Shown piece after piece: positions 144 to 27,006 of a stretch of DNA of 36,076 nt. Both the position numbers and the translations under genes were made by a program. Source of the stretch: Chlorobiota bacterium. GTDB taxonomy: Bacteria > Bacteroidota > Ignavibacteria > OLB7. Under the pieces are notes generated by a model. The model did no database searches. It was not told where the DNA came from and saw only the letters and a program-made list of their open reading frames with translations. Position 1 is the first letter of the stretch; every line of letters starts with the position of its first letter. The stretch lies in assembly GCA_021296135.1 (NCBI GenBank), contig JAGWAZ010000035.1, positions 1-36,076 on the forward strand, written 5' to 3'.

Positions 144-1982
144 ATGGCCGGTACACGCGACTACCAGGTAACAGCGCGCAAATGGCGACCAACCGTGTTC
201 AGTTCTGTTGTTGGTCAGGATCACGTCACTCAGACGTTGAGGAATGCGATCGCAAACGATCGGCTTCACCATGCGTATCTTTTGAGTGGACCACGTGGCG
301 TCGGCAAGACCACAACGGCACGCATCCTGGCAAAAGCACTGAATTGCACGAACCCGAGTGAAGAACAGGAGCCATGTAATACCTGTGAGTCGTGCGTTTC
401 GATCACTGAAGGACGTTCACTGGACGTGGTGGAGATAGATGGTGCATCGAACAACTCGGTTGAAGATGTACGGATGCTTCGTGAGAACGCCAAGTATCCG
501 CCCGTAAACGGCCTATACAAACTCTATATTATTGATGAAGTTCACATGCTCTCGACCAGTGCGTTCAACGCTCTGTTGAAGACGCTGGAGGAGCCTCCAA
601 AGCATCTGATCTTTGTTTTCGCTACAACTGAACCGCACAAAGTGCTTCCGACAATTCTCTCTCGCTGTCAACGCTTTGATTTCAGGCGTATGCAGATAGA
701 GGACATTGTCTCTCGATTGAGCCTTATCGCCCGGAAGGAGGGGATGAACCCGGAGGAAGATGCGCTGGTGATAATCGCCCGAAAAGGGGACGGTTCGATG
801 CGGGATGCGGAGTCGATTTTTGACCAGGTGACCTCGTTCTGTGGGCCAAACTTTACCGATGATCACGTCAACGAAGCATTGAACCTGATAGACCAGGAGT
901 TCTTTTTCTGCATCACAACGATGATGTGGGAACATCAGCCGGCTGAGGCCTTCGAGATTGTCGAGTATATCATGCGAGCTGGTTATGATCCCGGAGAATT
1001 TCTTCTCGGGCTGGCTGAACATTTTCGCAATATGCTTTCAGTGATGACAACCGCTTCCCCACGGCTAATCGAGACTACCGGAGCAATTCGTGAACGCTAC
1101 CAGGTCGATTCAGGAAAGTTTGAGCAGGGAGACATAATTCGTGCACTCCATCTGACGCTCGGTGTGCAAAGCGCTATCCGTTCGGCATCGCAACCACGAC
1201 TGCGTCTCGAGCTTCTTTTGATTCAGCTTGCAGTTATGGATTCGACTATCAGCCTTGAAGAGCTTCTTGAGAACATTAAAGGAATTCCTGATGGAGTGGA
1301 ACCTAGTCAGACTCTCAGCGCTTCATCGCCAACTACTCCCTCTGCTTCCTCCGGCCAGCAAGACAGTGAGGCCAAGAAGAGTGAGCCAAGCCCTTCGGAA
1401 GCTGAAGACACATCATCGAATGGAAGCGAATCTCCGCAGGCTTCACTTCTCAGAGAGAGTCGCGAATCTGGTGAATTGAAGAATTTCTCTTCTCGACTCA
1501 AAGAATTTCCAACGAGTACGACTGTTCGATCAATTCCGCCATCAATGATCAATGACGGATCGATGGCCAATCATGATAAGAACACCAATCAACAGTCTAC
1601 GGTCGCGGTCAGTATGTCGATCGATAAAGTCCGTTCTCAGTGGAATAGCTTTCTTGCTTCTTATTCCGAGAAGATGGGATTGATGTATGCACTTCATCCT
1701 GCTGCTCCGGGTGAGTTGCAGGGAAACGTTTTACAACTTTATGTCGAGAACGAGCGACAGAGAGATTTGATTGAGCAGTACAAGCATGATATCACGCAGT
1801 CGATTCAATCATTCTTTAACCAACCCTTGATTGTTGAAGGAGTGATCGGAATCCCTCCCACCTCAAAATCGAATGGGAGTGGGGTGAAAGCACACACCGG
1901 TGAAGCAACGGTTGACGGGGAGTATGAGGATCACCCGTTTATCAAGGGGATTGTTGAACTCCTTGGCGCCGTAAAAATCTGA
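144..1982 (+). CDS. dnaX: DNA polymerase III subunit gamma/tau
   Basis: This is the AAA+ ATPase of the clamp loader, which opens the sliding clamp and loads it at primed sites during replication. A Walker A motif GPRGVGKTT has its lysine at residue 55. Four zinc-ligand cysteines sit at 68, 78, 81 and 84. A DEVH Walker B begins at 131 and the arginine-finger SRC motif is at 173-175. Residues about 385-500 are a Ser/Pro/Glu-rich linker, and a folded C-terminal region follows, as in tau-type proteins. At 612 aa it is full length for tau. I saw no convincing A-AAA-AAG slippery site with a following stem, so a gamma product by frameshifting is not supported. The ATG at 144 gives the normal family N-terminus. 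It is a separate unit from the dcw cluster because a terminator follows it. Confidence 0.97.
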   Translation: MAGTRDYQVTARKWRPTVFSSVVGQDHVTQTLRNAIANDRLHHAYLLSGPRGVGKTTTARILAKALNCTNPSEEQEPCNTCESCVSITEGRSLDVVEIDGASNNSVEDVRMLRENAKYPPVNGLYKLYIIDEVHMLSTSAFNALLKTLEEPPKHLIFVFATTEPHKVLPTILSRCQRFDFRRMQIEDIVSRLSLIARKEGMNPEEDALVIIARKGDGSMRDAESIFDQVTSFCGPNFTDDHVNEALNLIDQEFFFCITTMMWEHQPAEAFEIVEYIMRAGYDPGEFLLGLAEHFRNMLSVMTTASPRLIETTGAIRERYQVDSGKFEQGDIIRALHLTLGVQSAIRSASQPRLRLELLLIQLAVMDSTISLEELLENIKGIPDGVEPSQTLSASSPTTPSASSGQQDSEAKKSEPSPSEAEDTSSNGSESPQASLLRESRESGELKNFSSRLKEFPTSTTVRSIPPSMINDGSMANHDKNTNQQSTVAVSMSIDKVRSQWNSFLASYSEKMGLMYALHPAAPGELQGNVLQLYVENERQRDLIEQYKHDITQSIQSFFNQPLIVEGVIGIPPTSKSNGSGVKAHTGEATVDGEYEDHPFIKGIVELLGAVKI

Positions 1983-2010
1983 ATAATAGGACATACCGAA
2001 TTCTACTCGC

Positions 2011-2053
2011 AAAGCATGGCCTCCGTCCTCCGGAGCCATGCTTTTTCTTTTTT
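2011..2053 (+). terminator. Rho-independent terminator after dnaX
   Basis: AAAGCATGGC-C-TCCG pairs with CGGAGCCATGCTTT across a short loop, with a single bulged C, and the descending arm runs into a TTTTTCTTTTTT tract. It lies 29 nt after the dnaX stop and isolates dnaX from mraZ. Confidence 0.85.
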
Positions 2054-2284
2054 CGCATTCCCACTTAGTGAAAAGATTTTTAATGTTTTCGTAGTGATTA
2101 CCAGAATTGGGAAGATTCTCAGCTCTCAGATTGAGTTACGTGAATAAGGAATAACGGCGATAGGGTTTGCTATAACGCTTAAAACTTTACAGAAAGACCG
2201 ATTTTCCATATTAGGAAAATGAAATGTAAAATATTAATACATAAGTCGAACACGACAAACGAAATCATAATTTTCACACTCCTG

Positions 2285-2321
2285 GTGGGGAAAAGTGGGG
2301 AAGGATGCTATACAGGTGGGG
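2285..2321 (+). promoter_or_regulatory. MraZ box array (three GTGGGG repeats)
   Basis: Direct repeats GTGGGG occur at 2285-2290, 2295-2300 and 2316-2321, spaced 10 and 21 bp, so all lie on about the same DNA face. MraZ of other bacteria binds arrays of TGGGN or GTGGG-like repeats with about 10-bp period before its own gene and represses the dcw operon. The array lies 38-74 nt before the mraZ ATG at 2359. No clear -35/-10 pair was found; CATAAT at 2266-2271 is a possible -10. Function is inferred from position and motif. Confidence 0.7.
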
Positions 2322-2358
2322 AGAACGGTACAGAGCGATTAGTTTGAACGCTGAAGTC

Positions 2359-2817
2359 ATGTCGTTTTTCAAGGGACGCGAAAATTATTCGGTGGATGAT
2401 AAGGGTCGTGTTGCGATCCCAGCGAAGATGCGCAAGAGCATGTCGCCGGAGGCTGCCGATACCTTTGTTGTTACCCGAGGGCCGGATGAAGATCCCTGTA
2501 TCTACGTTTACCCGCTCGACGAATGGAAGAAGATGGAAGCGCAGTTGGCTGGGCTTAATCAATACAACGGTCGCGACCTGTTCTTCGTTCGCACTCTTCT
2601 TTATTGGGCCGATGAATTAGCGCTGGATAAACAACACCGTGTAATGATTCCGAAAGCTCTTCTTGAGTTTGCCAAGATCGACAAGAATGCGTTGATCATC
2701 GGCGCTATGGACCATATCGAAATCTGGAACCCGGAGATCTTTGACAGTTATCTAAACAAGCGGGATGAATCGTATGCCGATGTAGCCGAGAGAGTGATGG
2801 GAGGAAGGCTTCTATAA
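2359..2817 (+). CDS. mraZ: Transcriptional regulator MraZ
   Basis: First gene of the dcw cluster: a ring-forming DNA-binding protein of the SpoVT/AbrB type that in other bacteria represses its own operon. Two tandem half-domains are visible, each with the D-K-x-x-R-V-x-I-P core: DKGRVAIPAK near the start and DKQHRVMIPK in the second half. The ORF track opens at 2305, but that start would put the third GTGGGG box inside the gene and add 18 residues not seen in the family. The ATG at 2359 gives the typical MSFFKG opening and 152 aa, the usual length. The SD before it is weak. rsmH follows after 19 nt. Confidence 0.95.
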   Translation: MSFFKGRENYSVDDKGRVAIPAKMRKSMSPEAADTFVVTRGPDEDPCIYVYPLDEWKKMEAQLAGLNQYNGRDLFFVRTLLYWADELALDKQHRVMIPKALLEFAKIDKNALIIGAMDHIEIWNPEIFDSYLNKRDESYADVAERVMGGRLL

Positions 2818-2836
2818 GCCCTTCGACTAAAGTGAA

Positions 2837-3772
2837 GTGGAGAAGCCATATCACATACCGGTCATGCTCCGCGAAGTTCTTGACAGACTGAAGATTTATC
2901 CTGAAGGAACATACTTCGATGGGACGCTTGGAGGGGGAGGGCATACAGAGGGTATTCTTCAGAGACTTGGAGCTCATGGCAGAGTGATCGCATGCGATGC
3001 TGATCCGGTTACAATCACACGAGCACAGCAGAGGTTTGCTAACGAACCACGACTACAGATTCGCCATGGATACTTCTATGCTGTTTGTCAGGAACTCTGC
3101 GATGAAAACGTAACGCTCACAGGAGTTCTTCTTGACCTCGGTGTTTCAAGTCGCCAACTCGATTCAGATCAGATTGGATTGAGTTATCGCGAAGAGATGC
3201 CGCTCGATATGAGATTTGATCCGGGAGAACGAGATCAGTCGGCGGCCGATATCATCAATAACTATTCGCCGGAAGACTTGGCGACGCTTTTCAGAACCTA
3301 TGGTGAGGAACCGGCAGCATGGAAGATCGCTCAGGCAATCGGCGCAGGCCGAATTGTCAAACCGATCAGTACAACGAAAGAGTTGCGAGAGATCATTGAA
3401 GAAGTGATTCCGGGACGATTCCTGATCAAAACGCTGTCGCGAGTCTTTCAGGCGTTGCGGATTGCCGTTAACAATGAGTTGGAAGAGCTCGAGCAAGGGC
3501 TTGGCTGCTTTATAGACCGACTTGAGGTCGGAGGAAGGTTGACAATTCTGACGTACCACTCGTTGGAGGATCGAATTGTGAAACAAAAGTTTCGGGTGGA
3601 GGAGAAAGGGTGTGAATGCCCACCCAGAATTCCAGAGTGTGTATGCGGCAACGTGGCTCGTTTGCGGATGATTCCACGAAAGCCGATTCGACCAAGTCAC
3701 GATGAAGTAAGGAAGAACCCAAGAGCACGTAGCGCAAAGCTCAGGATAGCAGAAAAAATTGTTGAGAAGTGA
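2837..3772 (+). CDS. rsmH: 16S rRNA (cytosine(1402)-N(4))-methyltransferase
   Basis: RsmH (MraW) transfers a methyl group from SAM to N4 of C1402 in 16S rRNA and is a standard dcw member. The start is GTG at 2837, chosen because it gives the family N-terminus YHIPVMLREVL. The SAM-binding glycine-rich loop GTLGGGGHTEG lies near residue 31, LDLGVSSRQLD follows, and the HSLEDRIVK segment is in the C-terminal half. A CxCP...CxC cysteine group (CECPPRIPECVC) near the C-terminus is also typical of the family. The 311-aa length is normal. A 54-nt spacer without a gene follows before ftsL. Confidence 0.97.
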   Translation: MEKPYHIPVMLREVLDRLKIYPEGTYFDGTLGGGGHTEGILQRLGAHGRVIACDADPVTITRAQQRFANEPRLQIRHGYFYAVCQELCDENVTLTGVLLDLGVSSRQLDSDQIGLSYREEMPLDMRFDPGERDQSAADIINNYSPEDLATLFRTYGEEPAAWKIAQAIGAGRIVKPISTTKELREIIEEVIPGRFLIKTLSRVFQALRIAVNNELEELEQGLGCFIDRLEVGGRLTILTYHSLEDRIVKQKFRVEEKGCECPPRIPECVCGNVARLRMIPRKPIRPSHDEVRKNPRARSAKLRIAEKIVEK

Positions 3773-3826
3773 TGTGAGAGGAAAACGTAATACCAGGAAG
3801 CTCGAAGACAGAAACTATTAAGGCAG

Positions 3827-4231
3827 ATGCAGGCAGTACGGGAACGAAAACGAGTAGCGCAAAAATCTGCTAAGAGAGGAGCCTCACCTCGTTCTTCTCG
3901 TCAGACAGAACTGATGCTTGAGGCAGAGCCTCCGCAACGATCGTTCCTTAGTCGTTGGAGTGCTGCCGGATTGATCTTGGTAGCTGCGGCCCTTGCGGTT
4001 CTCTTCGTTGCCAATGCAATTCACGTTAACGAATTGCTCAGAGGAGTGACCTCGGTAGAAGCAGAACGGGATGCTGTGAAAAGAGAGAACGAAGGGCTTC
4101 GGGCTGAGTTAACACGGCTGATGTCAGTGGATCAGATCACTGAGAGGGCAACTGGTATTGGCATGATTCAGCCGGAGAAGCCGCCAAAAGCATTGTCGTT
4201 ACGCAATAGTGAACTACAGGTAAATCCATAG
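3827..4231 (+). CDS. ftsL: Cell division protein FtsL-like (bitopic)
   Basis: A 134-aa bitopic protein in the ftsL position between rsmH and ftsI. It has a basic cytoplasmic N-terminus (about residues 1-43), one transmembrane segment at about 44-65, and a periplasmic helix rich in Glu, Arg and Leu (about 70-105) likely to form a coiled coil. FtsL joins FtsB/DivIC and FtsQ in the complex that activates FtsWI. FtsL sequences are poorly conserved, so the call rests on position, size and topology. It ends in TAG, which matters for the murD stop discussed elsewhere. Confidence 0.85.
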   Translation: MQAVRERKRVAQKSAKRGASPRSSRQTELMLEAEPPQRSFLSRWSAAGLILVAAALAVLFVANAIHVNELLRGVTSVEAERDAVKRENEGLRAELTRLMSVDQITERATGIGMIQPEKPPKALSLRNSELQVNP

Positions 4232-4295
4232 AGAAACATCGTTAAGGCTCTGAACGTTTGAGTCGAAACAAGTCGAGCACAGAGGTTGCAAGTCA

Positions 4296-6443
4296 GTGCC
4301 CGTCATTACCGAACACCATACCGAATATGCACCAACCCGTCCTCGTCCATCACACAAAGGACGATGGAGGCTTTATGCGGTCGGTATCCTTTTTGCCTTG
4401 GCGATGGCAGGAGTTATCGCACGCCTTTTTGTTCTTCAGGTGGTAAAGGGTGAGGAGTATGCAGAGCTTGCCCAGAAGCAGTATGAATCCAAAGCTCCGC
4501 TTCAAGCAGATCGAGGTACAATCCTTGATCGCAACGGTACCCTTCTTGCGACAAATATTCCTGCTCTTTCCTTTGCAGTTGATCCAAATCACATTGAGGA
4601 ACCTGAGATTCTTGCAGAGGCATTTGCCGAATCGTTTGGTGGTGACGTTGCTCTCTGGCGAAAGAAGATTGCTGCTGAGAATACCTCCTTCGTCTGGATC
4701 AAGCGCAAGGTTGTTGGTGAAGCGATCAACCGAATGAAAGAAATTGATGACGCCGGCCTTATCACGATCTCAGAGCCACTTCGTCGGTTTGAGTACGGAT
4801 CGTATGGAGCACAGGTTGTAGGCTGTGTAAACCTTGATAACGATGGACTAAGTGGTGTGGAACTCTTCTACAATACGTCATTGCGTGGTCTGGACGGCTA
4901 TATGGTTATGCAGCGGGATGCCCTCGGTCGGCGGCGTCCTGATATTGATCTTCCTCTTGTAGATCCGCAACATGGGGAGAACCTGCAACTGACGATTGAT
5001 ATCATCATACAGAGCATTGTTGAAGACGAGTTGGCGCGTGGTATCAAGTCGGCGGATGCAACCACAGGAACGGCTCTTGCCCTTGATCCAAGGACCGGTG
5101 AAATCCTTGCAATGGCGAGTCTCCCTTCGTTCGATCCAAATACTCCGGGTGCTGCCGAGCAATCAAATTTCCATCCACGGGGCATAACCAATACCTACGA
5201 GCCAGGGTCAACGATCAAGGGAATTATCGCAGCTGCTGCTCTCGAGGAAGGCCTGATAAGTCCTGATGAATTGATCGACGGAGAGGGTGGAGAGTATCAT
5301 CTCACTGACGACTATGTTATCCGCGACGATCACCCTCTTGGGTTGGTCAGCTTTGCTGATGCGTTCCGATGGTCGAGCAACATCATCTTTGCCAAGGTCG
5401 CCGGACGACTCGATCGGTCAACGTTCTACAAGTATGTCCGCGATTTCGGATTCGGTGTATCAACAGGGATTGATCTTCCAGGTGAGGTTCGGGGAGAGGT
5501 GAAGAAACCGGAAGAGTTCAGTGAGGGGACACAGGAGTTTATGGCCTATGGTTATCAGATTGCAGTAACTCCACTACAGCTTGCAGTAGCCTATGCGGCG
5601 ATAGCTAACGGAGGCGTAATCGTGCGGCCACATATTCTCAAGGGTAAAATTACCACTAATGGCGGTCTGCTTGAAGAGACTGAGTCTCAGGGCGTTCGTC
5701 GCGTTATCAGTGAAGAGACAGCAGCAACTATTTGCCGGATGCTGATAGATGTTGTTGAGAACGGAACAGGGCGAATAGCACAAACAACGAGTATTCCGGT
5801 TGCGGGTAAAACCGGTACTGCTCAAATACTTCACGAAGGGAGTTATGGGAACCAGCGCTATAACGCCTCCTTTATTGGATTCTTCCCGGCTGATGACCCG
5901 GAGGTCGTACTGCTTGTTCTTTTGAGCGAGCCAAAGAACGGTTACTACGGAGGCCGGGTTGCCGCTCCGATCTTCTCATCAATTGCAAAGCGGGTAATCA
6001 ACGTAACAATGGTCAATCGTGAACCTGAACTGCTGCAAGTGATCGATGAGACTGAAGATAGCAACCCTGTCGAGAGTGTTGAGGCGATCATTGTTCCTGA
6101 TATGCGTGGCCTGGATAATGATGCAGCAATTCGCATGGCACTATCCTGCCGTCTGAAAACTTCGATGCAAGGAATGGGGAAGAGAGTGTTAGCCCAGCAT
6201 CCTGCCCCAGGAGAGCCGATAAACAGAGGGGAGGTGATCTATCTGAATTTTGGTGACTCAGCAAGAATGCATGTCGTGCCTGATGTTCGTGGAATGACAA
6301 CGCGTCGTGCTCTTGCTGTGCTGAACGAATACCGATTGCAGCCAAGTATAGTCGGAACTACCGGTGGAGTGATTGGGGAGCAGCGTCCGCTGCCCGGTAC
6401 TCGGGTGAGCCGGAATGAGCACATCAGACTGCAATGTCAGTGA
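4296..6443 (+). CDS. ftsI: Septal peptidoglycan transpeptidase FtsI (PBP) with PASTA domains
   Basis: Class B penicillin-binding protein that cross-links septal peptidoglycan in the periplasm together with FtsW. Start GTG at 4296, with AGAGG ten nt upstream. One TM helix lies at about residues 28-48, then the PBP dimerisation domain (RGTILDRNG motif). The transpeptidase domain has the catalytic SxxK serine at 305 (STIK), the SxN motif at 360-362 (SSN) and KTGT with lysine 505. Two PASTA domains close the protein (about 600-655 and 661-715), each beginning VPD-M/V-RG. At 715 aa it fits the PASTA-bearing FtsI/SpoVD type. A 104-nt spacer with a hairpin separates it from murE. Confidence 0.96.
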   Translation: MPVITEHHTEYAPTRPRPSHKGRWRLYAVGILFALAMAGVIARLFVLQVVKGEEYAELAQKQYESKAPLQADRGTILDRNGTLLATNIPALSFAVDPNHIEEPEILAEAFAESFGGDVALWRKKIAAENTSFVWIKRKVVGEAINRMKEIDDAGLITISEPLRRFEYGSYGAQVVGCVNLDNDGLSGVELFYNTSLRGLDGYMVMQRDALGRRRPDIDLPLVDPQHGENLQLTIDIIIQSIVEDELARGIKSADATTGTALALDPRTGEILAMASLPSFDPNTPGAAEQSNFHPRGITNTYEPGSTIKGIIAAAALEEGLISPDELIDGEGGEYHLTDDYVIRDDHPLGLVSFADAFRWSSNIIFAKVAGRLDRSTFYKYVRDFGFGVSTGIDLPGEVRGEVKKPEEFSEGTQEFMAYGYQIAVTPLQLAVAYAAIANGGVIVRPHILKGKITTNGGLLEETESQGVRRVISEETAATICRMLIDVVENGTGRIAQTTSIPVAGKTGTAQILHEGSYGNQRYNASFIGFFPADDPEVVLLVLLSEPKNGYYGGRVAAPIFSSIAKRVINVTMVNREPELLQVIDETEDSNPVESVEAIIVPDMRGLDNDAAIRMALSCRLKTSMQGMGKRVLAQHPAPGEPINRGEVIYLNFGDSARMHVVPDVRGMTTRRALAVLNEYRLQPSIVGTTGGVIGEQRPLPGTRVSRNEHIRLQCQ

Positions 6444-6478
6444 AAGCTGGTTTCAGCATTGCCGATACACTTCCCTAT

Positions 6479-6501
6479 GCCCCCCTCCGAAGTGGAGGGC
6501 A
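6479..6501 (+). repeat. Short hairpin between ftsI and murE
   Basis: The spacer holds a small inverted repeat, CCCTCC-GAAGT-GGAGGG, with no T run after it, followed by a weaker GCCG/CGGC pairing. It is not a convincing terminator. It could be a decayed dispersed repeat or an mRNA structure. Confidence 0.4.
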
Positions 6502-6547
6502 ATTGAAAGCGTAGTGCCGTTAGAGGCGGCAAAGTAGCATAAAGAAG

Positions 6548-8098
6548 TTGGCAGATAACAAGAGAGTCTGGACAGACAACTTTAAGACACGAACAGTGAA
6601 GTCTCTTACATCCATAATCTCAATTCTGACTGAGGTCATCGCGATACGGGGTGCTGTAGAGAAGAATGTGAGCGCTATCAGATATGATAGCCGGGTTGTG
6701 GAGCCGGGAGATCTTTTTGTGGCCGTTAACGGTCCTGATGACCAGGCCCTCGGATTTGTTGACGCAGCTCTTACTGCCGGAGCTGAAGCAATTCTTCTCG
6801 ATGATCCGACACACATGCCTGAGAGGACCAACGGAGCAACCTGGATTCTTGTACGGGATGCTCGCCGAGCTATGGCTGAGGCTTCGGCATATATGTTCAA
6901 TTACCCGATGCACGACATGGTGCTTTATGGGGTTACGGGAACAAATGGAAAGACAACAACTGCTCATGTTTTACAATTTCTTTTGAATGGAACTGGTGAG
7001 ACTACCGGCATGATCGGAACGCTTGGAAAGACTATTGAGGGCACAACTCCAACCGGTTATACAACTCCCGAATCACCCGAACTGATAGGGATCCTGGGAG
7101 AAATGAAAAAGGCAGGAATGACGAGCGTTGTGATGGAGATCTCCTCACATGCTCTGACTCTCAAACGGGTTGAAGGTCTCTGTTTTTCTGGCGGAATCTT
7201 CACCAATATCGCGCAAGACCATCTCGATTTTCATACAACATTTGAGGACTATCTCGATGCAAAGAAAAGCTTCTTTGACAGACTCGACTTACACGCACAT
7301 GCAGTGGTCAACATCGACGACCTATACGGAGCCGGAATGGCACGCGACAGTAATGCCGCAATCGTTCGATATGGATACGGCAGAGATGCCGATCTCCGCA
7401 TCAGTGACACAAACCTCGATTCCAACGGCTCCTCATGGGTCGTAACCTTCTCTGATGCCTTTGGAGGTGGGGTCTTGACGCTCGAGTCGACGCTGTTGGG
7501 AAACTTCAACGTAATGAACATTACGGCGGCCTGTGGAATGGTAATTGCAGCCGGAATTGACCGGCAAAGGTTGCCGTCGCTGGTCTCATCACTGAAGCCG
7601 GTGCCTGGACGTATGGAGACAATCAGTCTGAGGAATGGTGCAACCGCTGTTGTGGATTATGCCCATACGCCGGACGCGCTGGAAAGTTTGTTGAAAACTA
7701 CCAGAGAGTTCCATCGCAAAGGAAAGCTGATTCTGGTCTTTGGTTGTGGGGGGGATCGTGATCGAGGCAAAAGACCGTTGATGGGGAGAATTGCTTCGGA
7801 CTTATCAGATACTATTTACGTTACCTCCGACAATCCTCGTAGTGAGGATCCGGAGACGATTATCAATGAGATCCTTGGGGGAATTGAAGGAGGGCCAACA
7901 AGAGTCAACCGGATAACCGATCGTCGAACGGCAATCGAGGCAGCCCTTTCCGAGACTACATCGGATGACATTCTGGTGGTCGCCGGAAAGGGACATGAGA
8001 CCTACCAGCTTGTTGGAGCCGAGAGACGCTATTTCGATGATCGTGAAGTCGTTCGAGGATGGCATGCAGAGGGGACTAATGGACGTGAACAGAATTAG
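6548..8098 (+). CDS. murE: UDP-MurNAc-tripeptide synthetase, meso-DAP-adding
   Basis: Cytoplasmic ATP-dependent Mur ligase that adds the third residue to UDP-MurNAc-L-Ala-D-Glu. The N-terminal domain has the YDSR motif, the ATP loop GTNGKTT has its lysine at 135, and the substrate motif TTPE follows. DNPR at residues 428-431 is the meso-diaminopimelate recognition motif, as opposed to DDPN in lysine enzymes, so the cell wall is probably DAP-type. The track start is TTG at 6548. It leaves an extra stretch of about 16 residues before the conserved N-terminus, so a GTG at 6596 is an alternative; neither has a strong SD. It ends in TAG, 11 nt before murF. Confidence 0.96.
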   Translation: MADNKRVWTDNFKTRTVKSLTSIISILTEVIAIRGAVEKNVSAIRYDSRVVEPGDLFVAVNGPDDQALGFVDAALTAGAEAILLDDPTHMPERTNGATWILVRDARRAMAEASAYMFNYPMHDMVLYGVTGTNGKTTTAHVLQFLLNGTGETTGMIGTLGKTIEGTTPTGYTTPESPELIGILGEMKKAGMTSVVMEISSHALTLKRVEGLCFSGGIFTNIAQDHLDFHTTFEDYLDAKKSFFDRLDLHAHAVVNIDDLYGAGMARDSNAAIVRYGYGRDADLRISDTNLDSNGSSWVVTFSDAFGGGVLTLESTLLGNFNVMNITAACGMVIAAGIDRQRLPSLVSSLKPVPGRMETISLRNGATAVVDYAHTPDALESLLKTTREFHRKGKLILVFGCGGDRDRGKRPLMGRIASDLSDTIYVTSDNPRSEDPETIINEILGGIEGGPTRVNRITDRRTAIEAALSETTSDDILVVAGKGHETYQLVGAERRYFDDREVVRGWHAEGTNGREQN

Positions 8099-24635: not shown

Positions 24636-24689
24636 CCTGAGGCAGTAGGTAGGGAAAAGATAATCATATACAAAAGTTACTAAGAATAG

Positions 24690-24717
24690 TTGACAATTAG
24701 TTAATTTATGATATTAT
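24690..24717 (+). promoter_or_regulatory. Sigma70-like promoter (TTGACA-N16-TATTAT)
   Basis: A perfect -35 TTGACA (24690-24695), a 16-nt spacer and TATTAT (24712-24717) sit in an A/T-rich stretch. It points to the transposase remnant that starts 40 nt later and may also drive the restriction-modification genes. It resembles classical proteobacterial promoters more than the TAnnTTTG type, fitting an acquired element. Confidence 0.5.
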
Positions 24718-24756
24718 AGTTACCATGATTAAAGTAAATAGCATAAGAGAATAATT

Positions 24757-25149
24757 ATGCCAGGACCAGGAAAATCGTACCGAGAAGGTTTTACGGTTAT
24801 TGAGTTCTATTTCGTATTTTTCTGAATAATGCGGCGGCGGAAAGCGTGGTTTGAGGCGCAACGGTGGCCCGGTGAAGTTACCTGCCCAGATTGCGGTTCT
24901 GATAAATGCGTTTCCACGACACACAAGACAAAGCGGTATCGTTGCAAAGATTGCAGGCAGTTCTTTAGCGTTCGCAAGGGAACGGTTATGGAGTCGAGCA
25001 AGCTCGGATGACAACAATGGACTATCACTGCTATGTTAACGAATTTGCCGGCGTATAACATCCGCGACAAGGGTACACTCATGCAGAAGACCGCGATGGC
25101 GCGGGGAATGGTTGGGAAGCAACTCAAATACGAGGATTTAATCGCATGA
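24757..25149 (+). pseudogene. IS1595-family transposase remnant (frameshifted, internally deleted)
   Basis: Pieces of one transposase lie in order but in different frames. MPGPGKSYREGFTVIE opens at the ATG. A shifted frame gives LFRIFLNNAAAE, then AWFEAQRWPGEVTCPDCGS. A zinc ribbon follows (CPDC ... CKDC) with FSVRKGTVMESSKL, the hallmark N-terminus of IS1595/ISXO2-type transposases. The central catalytic region is missing. After a stop come DYHCYVNEFAGV and, in another frame, YNIRDKGTLMQKTAMARGMVGKQLKY, the usual C-terminal end. The track shows only the 60-aa ORF at 24829-25011. Its final stop overlaps the methyltransferase ATG as ATGA. No terminal inverted repeats were identified by eye. 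Confidence 0.8.
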
Positions 25150-25961
25150 TGACGAAAGATACGTGGATCGGCAAGGTCCATCATGGCGATTGTCTTGATG
25201 TAATGAAGGTCATTCCGTCTGATAGTGTTGACCTTATCATTACTTCGCCACCCTATGCCGATGCTAGGTCTCATACATACGGCGGAATTAAGCCAGAAGA
25301 ATATGTCGAGTGGTTTTGTGACCGCGGGGAGGAAATCCACAGAATATTAAAGCCGACGGGATCGTTTGTTCTGAACATAAAAGAGAAAGCGGTTGATGGT
25401 GAAAGGCACACGTACGTACTCGATCTTATTCTTGCCTTAAAGCGACAAATCGGTTTCCGATGGGTCGAGGAATACGTGTGGCACAAAACCACGTCCGCGC
25501 CGGGGAAGTGGAAATATCGTTTTCGAGATGCATGGGAGCGGATAATCCATTTCAGCAAAACCAAAGACATCAAAATGCGACAAGATGCCGTCAAGGTTCC
25601 TATAGGCGACTGGACGGAAACCCGCCTACGCAACATGAGTGATAACGACCGCGAGCGGAGAGAATCTGCTACAAGTTCAAAGATCGGTCGCAGAATAGAG
25701 GCTTGGGAAGGCAGAAAAACTGTATATCCATCAAACGTCTTGCATCGCCCACCTGTCTGTCACAATACAGGACATAGTGCCGCCTTCCCTGAATGGTTGC
25801 CGGAGTTCTTTATCAAATTATTTACCGACGAAGGTGATGTAGTGCTCGATCCTTTTTTGGGTAGTGGAACGACTTTCCGAGTTGCCCAAAAGATGGGCAG
25901 AAATCCCGTTGGAATTGAAATAAAAAAGGAATATGTGCAGGAAGAGAGGATTTTGCTGTGA
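25146..25961 (+). CDS. Type II DNA amino-methyltransferase (beta class, likely N4-cytosine)
   Basis: Modification enzyme of a restriction-modification pair: it methylates an exocyclic amino group of DNA using SAM. The catalytic motif IV TSPPY is at residues 33-37 and comes before the SAM-binding motif I DPFLGSGTT (235-243), the circular order of beta-class enzymes. SPPY is most common in N4-cytosine enzymes, but N6-adenine cannot be excluded. The 271-aa length is normal for a stand-alone enzyme. The stop overlaps the nuclease gene (GTGA, 25958-25961), so the two are coupled. The first ATG overlaps the transposase remnant stop. A second ATG directly follows. Base composition is more A/T-rich than the dcw genes, fitting transfer. 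Confidence 0.9.
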   Translation: MMTKDTWIGKVHHGDCLDVMKVIPSDSVDLIITSPPYADARSHTYGGIKPEEYVEWFCDRGEEIHRILKPTGSFVLNIKEKAVDGERHTYVLDLILALKRQIGFRWVEEYVWHKTTSAPGKWKYRFRDAWERIIHFSKTKDIKMRQDAVKVPIGDWTETRLRNMSDNDRERRESATSSKIGRRIEAWEGRKTVYPSNVLHRPPVCHNTGHSAAFPEWLPEFFIKLFTDEGDVVLDPFLGSGTTFRVAQKMGRNPVGIEIKKEYVQEERILL

Positions 25962-26623
25962 ATGATTATTTGCCTTGGATTGCAGATAACGAACTCCTTG
26001 ATGCTGTAGACGCACTCATAAAATCGTCAGAGAAAGCATACTCACATGCTGAGGAACGGATTCAGAAAAATGTTATTGACCCGTTTTCTTCCATAACTAT
26101 TGTCTCCACGCTAAACATAAAATCTTCTGAGGATTTGAACAGAATCCAAGCGTCTCAATCTGCATTATCTGGAATGTCAAACGCAATTGGAACGTTTCAT
26201 CAATCTGTATTAGGTTCTGTGGAAGGCTGGTTAAACCACGATACTGGTTACGATCTTGAAAACCCGTCTCGGAAACTTATTGCCGAAATTAAGAACAAGC
26301 ACAACACTATGAATCAACAGAACCGAGAAAAGGTTATTAGCGATTTAGATACAGCACTTAAGCAGAAAGGCAGGGAATGGACTGGCTACCTAGTGCAAAT
26401 TATCTCAAAAAACAGAGAACGTTTTACAAAGAAAACTGGCTTTGGCAGGGAATTGTATGAGACCGATGGGTCTACTTTTTACGAATTGGCAACAGGCTAT
26501 TCGACAGCCCTGTATGACCTATATCATGCGCTTGAAAAACTTTTGAGCGAAATAAATGGGTCGCTATCTAGTGAAATTAAGGACATGTGCAGAAGAATAC
26601 TCACCAACGGTATTCCTAAATAA
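25958..26623 (+). CDS. Type II restriction endonuclease, Eco47II-like
   Basis: Partner nuclease of the preceding methyltransferase, starting at GTG inside its stop. Residues 99-118 (D99, then AEIKNKHNT with E110 and K112) make a plausible PD-(D/E)xK active site. The blocks EIKNKHNT and DGSTFYELATG are those I associate with Eco47II-type enzymes that cut GGNCC. The N-terminal 95 residues look helical. At 221 aa it is close to that family's size. The site specificity is inferred from family resemblance only, and the pairing with an amino-methyltransferase rather than a C5 enzyme should be checked. Confidence 0.75.
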   Translation: MNDYLPWIADNELLDAVDALIKSSEKAYSHAEERIQKNVIDPFSSITIVSTLNIKSSEDLNRIQASQSALSGMSNAIGTFHQSVLGSVEGWLNHDTGYDLENPSRKLIAEIKNKHNTMNQQNREKVISDLDTALKQKGREWTGYLVQIISKNRERFTKKTGFGRELYETDGSTFYELATGYSTALYDLYHALEKLLSEINGSLSSEIKDMCRRILTNGIPK

Positions 26624-26636
26624 GAAGTCTTCGAAT

Positions 26637-26807
26637 ATGACAAGTCAAAAAACGAAACCCAAAATTAAGCACAGTCGCCCTGCAACTCGGACATTAAAGA
26701 TTGATGTGTTGCCCGAATATGTGGCGAAGTCGATATTTGCCGCCACCAAACAACCCGATTCATCGAAACGAAAGAAATCTGTGAACTGCCATGTTTGTAG
26801 TGAGTAG
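26637..26807 (+). CDS. Possible small basic protein, 56 aa
   Basis: A short ORF begins at ATG 26637, 14 nt after the nuclease stop, and reads to 26807. The longer track ORF from 26556 overlaps the nuclease and is less likely. The product is basic (Lys/Arg/Ser/Thr-rich start) with a KIDVLPEYVAKSIFAA helix and a C-terminal CHVC pair. I do not recognise it. It lacks a clear helix-turn-helix, so it is not an obvious controller protein of the restriction system. Confidence 0.3.
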   Translation: MTSQKTKPKIKHSRPATRTLKIDVLPEYVAKSIFAATKQPDSSKRKKSVNCHVCSE

Positions 26808-26872: not shown

Positions 26873-27006
26873 TCGCAGGCTAAAGCCTTGCGACTACCAT
26901 TCGACCCTCAACTTCAAGAACTACGGTCATTGCTGCGCCAAGGCCAAAGACCTGCGACTACCTTTCAACTCTCAACTTCAAGAGCTACCATCGTTGCCGC
27001 GCCAAG
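26873..27006. repeat. 64-bp tandem duplication with REP-like hairpin
   Basis: Two imperfect copies with 64-bp period: 26877-26940 and 26941-27004, both beginning AGGC-x-AAAG and containing CTGCGACTACC-like (copy 1 TTGCGACTACC) and CTCAACTTCAAGA words. Copy 1 starts in a palindrome, TCGCAGGCT-AA-AGCCTTGCGA (26873-26893). On the minus strand both copies read LGAA-x-x-V-x-LEVE, the C-terminus of the ROK kinase. Copy 2 contains the true gene end (stop at 26965), so copy 1 is a duplicated gene tail. An inverted copy of the 13-mer GAGTTGAGAGTCA lies just before, at 26832-26844. Confidence 0.75.

Follow-up and report, generated by a model that had tools for sequence, protein, structure and literature searches.

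Does a restriction-modification (R-M) gene pair that directly follows a broken IS1595-type transposase gene owe its position to chance, or did it arrive as the cargo of an insertion sequence (IS)? The question is raised by a locus within the 36,076-nucleotide stretch of Chlorobiota DNA analyzed here (hereafter, the window; Table 1), which an earlier sequence-only reading had described as a possible compact, mobile, IS-borne R-M unit. We have found that IS1595 elements carry R-M systems between defined ends, with 8-bp target duplications and multi-copy spread. The window locus is very probably a decayed "transporter IS" of the IS1595 family, in which a two-gene type II R-M cargo has outlived its transposase.

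Table 1. Features of the R-M unit and its surroundings, in window coordinates.
Feature	Position	Strand	Evidence and remarks
Candidate left terminal repeat (GATAATCATATACAAAAGTTACTA)	24659..24682	+	Resembles group terminal inverted repeat (TIR) GGGAATTATATAC...; weak, P=0.15 in shuffles
Predicted sigma-70-like promoter, TTGACA-N16-TATTAT	24690..24717	+	11/12 match; TG before -10 (extended -10)
N-terminal stretch of IS1595 transposase remnant, zinc ribbon included	24757..25008	+	PF12760; 44-53% identity to the L015 and L151 transposases
In-frame stop, then ~540-bp deletion junction, then frameshift	25009..25053	+	Three-frame translation against the L015 transposase
IS1595 transposase remnant, C-terminal end (...ARGMVGKQLKYEDLIA)	25054..25149	+	tblastn, 55-61%; stop overlaps methyltransferase start
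N4/N6 DNA methyltransferase, 271 aa	25146..25961	+	PF01555, E=5.6e-47; TSPPY and DPFLGSGTT motifs preserved
Eco47II-type type II restriction endonuclease, 221 aa	25958..26623	+	PF09553 RE_Eco47II, E=6.3e-37
Small ORF, 56 aa	26637..26807	+	Family searches without significant match
Candidate right terminal repeat (GGCAAATATCGACTTCGCCACATA)	26718..26741	-	Weak, P=0.07; 118 nt past nuclease

Both ORFs of the window pair are intact and full length and match PF01555 and PF09553, in agreement with the sequence-only reading; the adjoining methyltransferase (MTase) and type II nuclease genes provide the gene content of a type II R-M system. The closest PDB match of the MTase is the PvuII N4-cytosine methylase (1boo, E=1.5e-31), and PADLOC assigns the protein to MTase_II. 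The nuclease aligns with positions 1-199 of the 202 in the PF09553 profile at 127.6 bits (cut-off 25.9), is assigned to REase_II by PADLOC (PDLC03470, E=1.1e-29), and contains an AEIKNKHNTMN motif that is shared with its relatives. The GTGA overlap that had been noted between the two genes is present, with the MTase stop at 25959-25961 and the GTG start of the nuclease from 25958. The 56-aa ORF that follows may lie within the old element.

The upstream gene (24757-25149) is a dead IS1595-family transposase that retains its N- and C-termini and has lost its catalytic core. Its reading frame opens at the ATG at 24757 and encodes a zinc ribbon within 24757-25008 (PF12760 Zn_ribbon_IS1595, E=1.4e-8 in a profile search, exceeding the curated cut-off), the N-terminal domain expected of the family. 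After an internal stop, the C-terminal end resumes at ~25030 (...YVNEFAG/RHNIRD...ARGMVGKQLKYEDLIA) and continues to 25149, its last 31-39 residues having 55-61% identity to the C-termini of IS1595 transposases (tblastn). An alignment to the intact transposase of a related locus, L015, showed that residues ~92-272, which comprise the DDE core, are absent, corresponding to a deletion of ~540 bp, and three-frame translation revealed frame changes at ~24800-24830 and ~25045 plus in-frame stops. The DDE_Tnp_IS1595 catalytic domain is found in L015 and is deleted from the window, where the gene is therefore a remnant and no functional member of the IS1595 family. The earlier identification of an IS1595-type remnant was thus correct, as was its ATGA overlap with the MTase (transposase stop at 25147-25149, MTase ATG at 25146-25148). 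Since the element around the R-M pair has decayed, the pair itself might have arrived as IS cargo and be inactive by now. Such a relic would be compatible with a transporter-IS origin and rivals only the functional part of our reading; we consider it unlikely, as neither ORF is truncated and the family motifs of both are preserved, beside a heavily damaged transposase.

Scanning of genomes with the window nuclease retrieved 80 loci. In the seven nearest in gene content (L010-L016), which derive from Chloroflexota, Pseudomonadota, Spirochaetota and one MAG labelled Cenarchaeum, an orthologous MTase (71-78%) is followed by the nuclease (45-50%). One of these, L015, has the order transposase-MTase-nuclease enclosed in a 2694-bp element with perfect 34-bp inverted repeats (GGGAATTATAGGGAATAGTGAACATATATTAAGC) at its ends and an 8-bp duplication (AAACATAT) on both sides. 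Its transposase is complete (318 aa; PF12762, E=8.7e-33), and its cargo matches that of the window at 71% for the MTase, which has one frameshift, and 45% for the nuclease. On a contig from a viral collection (L179), a truncated transposase precedes the MTase (78%) and the nuclease (42%), and a good right TIR of the group is located at 4595, 160 nt past the nuclease. The gene order of the window is also kept in L013, where the transposase C-terminus alone remains upstream of the MTase. Related elements with the same gene order, which the earlier reading had suggested seeking, therefore do occur in other genomes (L015, L179 and L013). Another contig, of a phage (L178), encodes the MTase only, and neither the transposase search nor the L015-repeat search of viral contigs produced a match. 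In L014, the MTase-nuclease pair lies between group-type TIRs without a transposase. Mobile insertion cassettes are transposase-less and bounded by TIRs; L014 shares this anatomy, whereas the window differs from it in keeping transposase pieces and in having no provable repeats. At 6692-6846 of L014, a small inverted-repeat element (GGGCACCTC...GAGGTGCCC) is apparently located within the right IS1595 end, with a possible TCAA duplication.

No IS parts were detected at L010, L011, L012 and L016, where the MTase-nuclease pair is present, and the link to the IS is therefore common and not obligatory. In the nuclease tree, the nine members paired with an N4/N6 methylase form one supported clade (100/98), four of them without an IS part; branches inside this clade are unresolved, and neither the MTase nor the nuclease tree resolves whether the IS-linked members group together. 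The choice of methylase sets this clade apart. An m5C-like methylase is present in 72 of the 80 retrieved nuclease loci and an N4/N6 type in exactly seven, beside which the window and L179 also pair an Eco47II-type nuclease with an N4/N6 methylase. The window thus resembles Eco47II-type R-M systems (PF09553) in nuclease family and type II pairing and departs from them in having an N4/N6 methylase instead of the usual m5C-like partner, which indicates that the IS-linked lineage is also partner-swapped. The RE_Eco47II nucleases of L017-L089 mostly co-occur with m5C methylases, an N4/N6 partner being seen only in the clade of the window.

Elements with proven ends extend beyond this nuclease. Perfect 8-bp duplications surround transposase plus cargo in L180 (TAAAACAG), L186 (ATAACTTT), L196 (AAAAATAT), L212 (TAAATCAA) and L209-L211, as in L015, and passenger genes lie within the IS termini in all of these; an 8-bp duplication is also present at L204. 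TIRs starting with GG are clear in the relatives and represented by weak candidates only in the window. L191, L202 and L188 have repeat pairs and lack a clean 8-bp duplication, and were not accepted as proven elements. In a less selected check, 369 genomes of the same class were searched for transposase matches at E<=1e-80. Close transposases were found in four, two of them already known and two new (G777 and G782), and both new genomes carry methylases. The closed 2.16-Mb chromosome of G782 contains three copies of a 2530-bp element that are 99.8-100% identical and occupy three sites, each with 23-bp ends and its own duplication (AAATTAAA, TAAATTTT and TTATTTTA). Every copy consists of a transposase and a methylase-HNH gene, the latter a full HNH fusion in one copy and a shorter ORF in two. 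Three near-identical copies with distinct duplications demonstrate recent movement of the methylase-HNH cargo.

The genomes of L011, L012, L015 and L016 contain many transposases of the same subgroup, and the genes downstream of these were classified. A DNA methylase is the first gene behind the transposase in at least 15 of ~30 evaluable copies, an approximate count, since these elements often coincide with contig ends. PF01555 genes on the same strand and <=400 nt from the transposase end were seen 8 times against 0.06 expected (P ~4e-15, or P=5e-13 leaving out L015); the background density rests on PF01555 counts that may be lower bounds in genomes with at least 20, and P is still 6e-11 when this density is doubled. 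The cargo varies in R-M type, with an EcoRV-like nuclease and D12 methylase in L187, a BglII-like nuclease and N4/N6 methylase in L192, an NgoFVII-like nuclease and m5C methylase in L184, and a CfrBI-like nuclease and N4/N6 methylase in L188, to which the methylase in L185 is related. L186 and L202 each pair another REase_II with a methylase (m5C and D12, respectively), and L180, L152 and L191 carry methylase-HNH fusions. Defence-like cargo is found in L196, a 5.2-kb IS1595 element (1407-6589 in reverse-complement coordinates; duplication AAAAATAT) with ThsB-like TIR protein, MazG_C, Nmad2 and UDG-family genes, and in L189 (3540-5685) a GmrSD/NsnA-like gene and an AAA ATPase are located downstream of an IS1595 transposase fragment.

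The host genome has a second unit of this type on contig C31 (L110 6561-8692), where a D12 methylase and an HNH nuclease come directly after an IS1595 transposase remnant. A small IS1016-like IS1595 copy with TIR GTTCAAGACAACTTAAGAG on host contig C119 (L111 5521-6254) was not counted as evidence of R-M cargo, since simple insertion into an R-M locus is the likelier origin. Class-level IS1595 relatives (L118-L147), which are more distant and come from the window's own class, were likewise discounted as evidence of R-M cargo, their passengers being mostly unknown or membrane proteins. The IS1595 cousin at L133 (472-3577) has target duplication CCCGTAAA and a 295-aa passenger without a known family, and L140 has a RhuM-family gene beside the transposase.

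The ends of the window copy itself were sought with a position weight matrix (PWM) built from the ends of the group, which scored best at 24659 and 26741. The left candidate is 98 nt upstream of the transposase start, compared with 54-164 nt in relatives, and the spacings of both weak candidates resemble those in intact elements. No significant TIR pair was found in the window by ungapped search, gapped alignment (P=0.59) or the group PWM (P=0.15/0.07), and no 8-bp duplication occurs at the candidates, where the flanking sequences differ. The TIRs and target duplication that the earlier reading had proposed looking for around the unit were thus not recovered, and the window alone proves no element. 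With its transposase dead and neither termini nor duplication recovered, the window copy is not supported as mobile; the notion of a compact mobile R-M unit applies to intact relatives with TIRs and 8-bp duplications. No second copy of the remnant, the unit or the 3' flank was found in the host genome. Family-level relatives (L106-L109) keep the ROK kinase gene, L108 and L109 also the ABC ATPase, and no empty site is readable in them because rearrangements have altered the region past the ROK gene; the flank beside the R-M unit is not conserved. In the window, two 64-bp tandem copies (26877-27004), 83% identical and without a match elsewhere in the host genome, separate the small ORF from the ROK kinase gene. 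The promoter-like site at the left edge, which had been singled out as strong, is present, but as a class such sites are no commoner than chance predicts (4 against 4.1 in shuffled sequence). This predicted promoter is probably the former transposase promoter.

These results bear on whether the pair was cargo here at all. An ordinary IS1595 copy could have inserted in front of R-M genes that were already resident and then decayed, and the window's want of termini and duplication, together with the four related pairs that have no IS parts, fits such a history. The same order, orientation and short spacing nonetheless recur in L013, L015 and L179, which come from unrelated sources; the repeats and duplication of L015 enclose the R-M genes; and methylases are strongly enriched behind this transposase group. 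We therefore regard a chance neighborhood as improbable. That only the left IS end was selected, as a driver of R-M genes that were never cargo here, is more doubtful still. A strong promoter-like site has indeed been retained and the transposase core lost, but the C-terminal end of the transposase runs straight into the MTase gene, just as it does in intact elements with cargo. On the earlier proposal that R-M pairs without a transposase, or an absence of shared termini, would speak against an IS-borne unit, the former are found in part (L010, L011, L012 and L016), and the latter holds for the window copy only, intact relatives having termini.

Passengers on IS1595 elements, which the earlier reading had mentioned, are documented. 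The family is characterized by 8-bp duplications, a zinc finger and a DDE domain, and has been compared with the GG-ended Merlin elements (PMC8101967). Its transporter IS include tISCpe8 (lincomycin resistance) and the related tISSag10 (MTnSag1) (PMC5704250), as well as ISNha5, with a regulator (PMC11891212). The intact relatives described here likewise combine an IS1595 transposase with passengers inside the IS ends; the difference lies in the cargo, an entire type II R-M system, with other R-M or defence genes in sister elements, and the window copy is in addition transposase-dead. A methyltransferase passenger is shared with IS220, which belongs to the IS1380 family and for which no restriction nuclease is mentioned (PMC11891212). 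Searches of the open literature did not retrieve a description of complete R-M systems as IS1595 cargo, a result that does not extend to subscription papers such as the 2009 article on the IS1595 family.

The following course of events is proposed. The relatives show a transposase that works on inverted repeats at the element's ends and leaves 8-bp target duplications, and the window R-M pair would have arrived in this way as IS1595 cargo behind the transposase gene. The core deletion and frameshifts would then have killed the transposase, leaving the MTase and nuclease genes undamaged. Transcription of the pair probably starts at the former transposase promoter, with translation through the start-stop overlaps. 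R-M pairs impose addiction on their host, and selection for defence or such addiction may have kept the pair while the transposase decayed.

Type II R-M systems move between distant species, and to our knowledge most of them sit in genomes without a visible vehicle. An IS-sized group with complete R-M cargo, intact ends, duplications and recent multi-copy transposition is a concrete vehicle for R-M systems. We are inclined, with some reserve, to see this IS1595 subgroup as a dedicated small vehicle for R-M and other defence genes, one that swaps R-M types behind its transposase, crosses phyla and strands R-M pairs when the transposase decays. Decayed copies like that of the window would account for seemingly solitary R-M pairs, and the R-M-carrying IS1595 group offers a setting for testing whether R-M addiction helps to retain a transposon in the genome.
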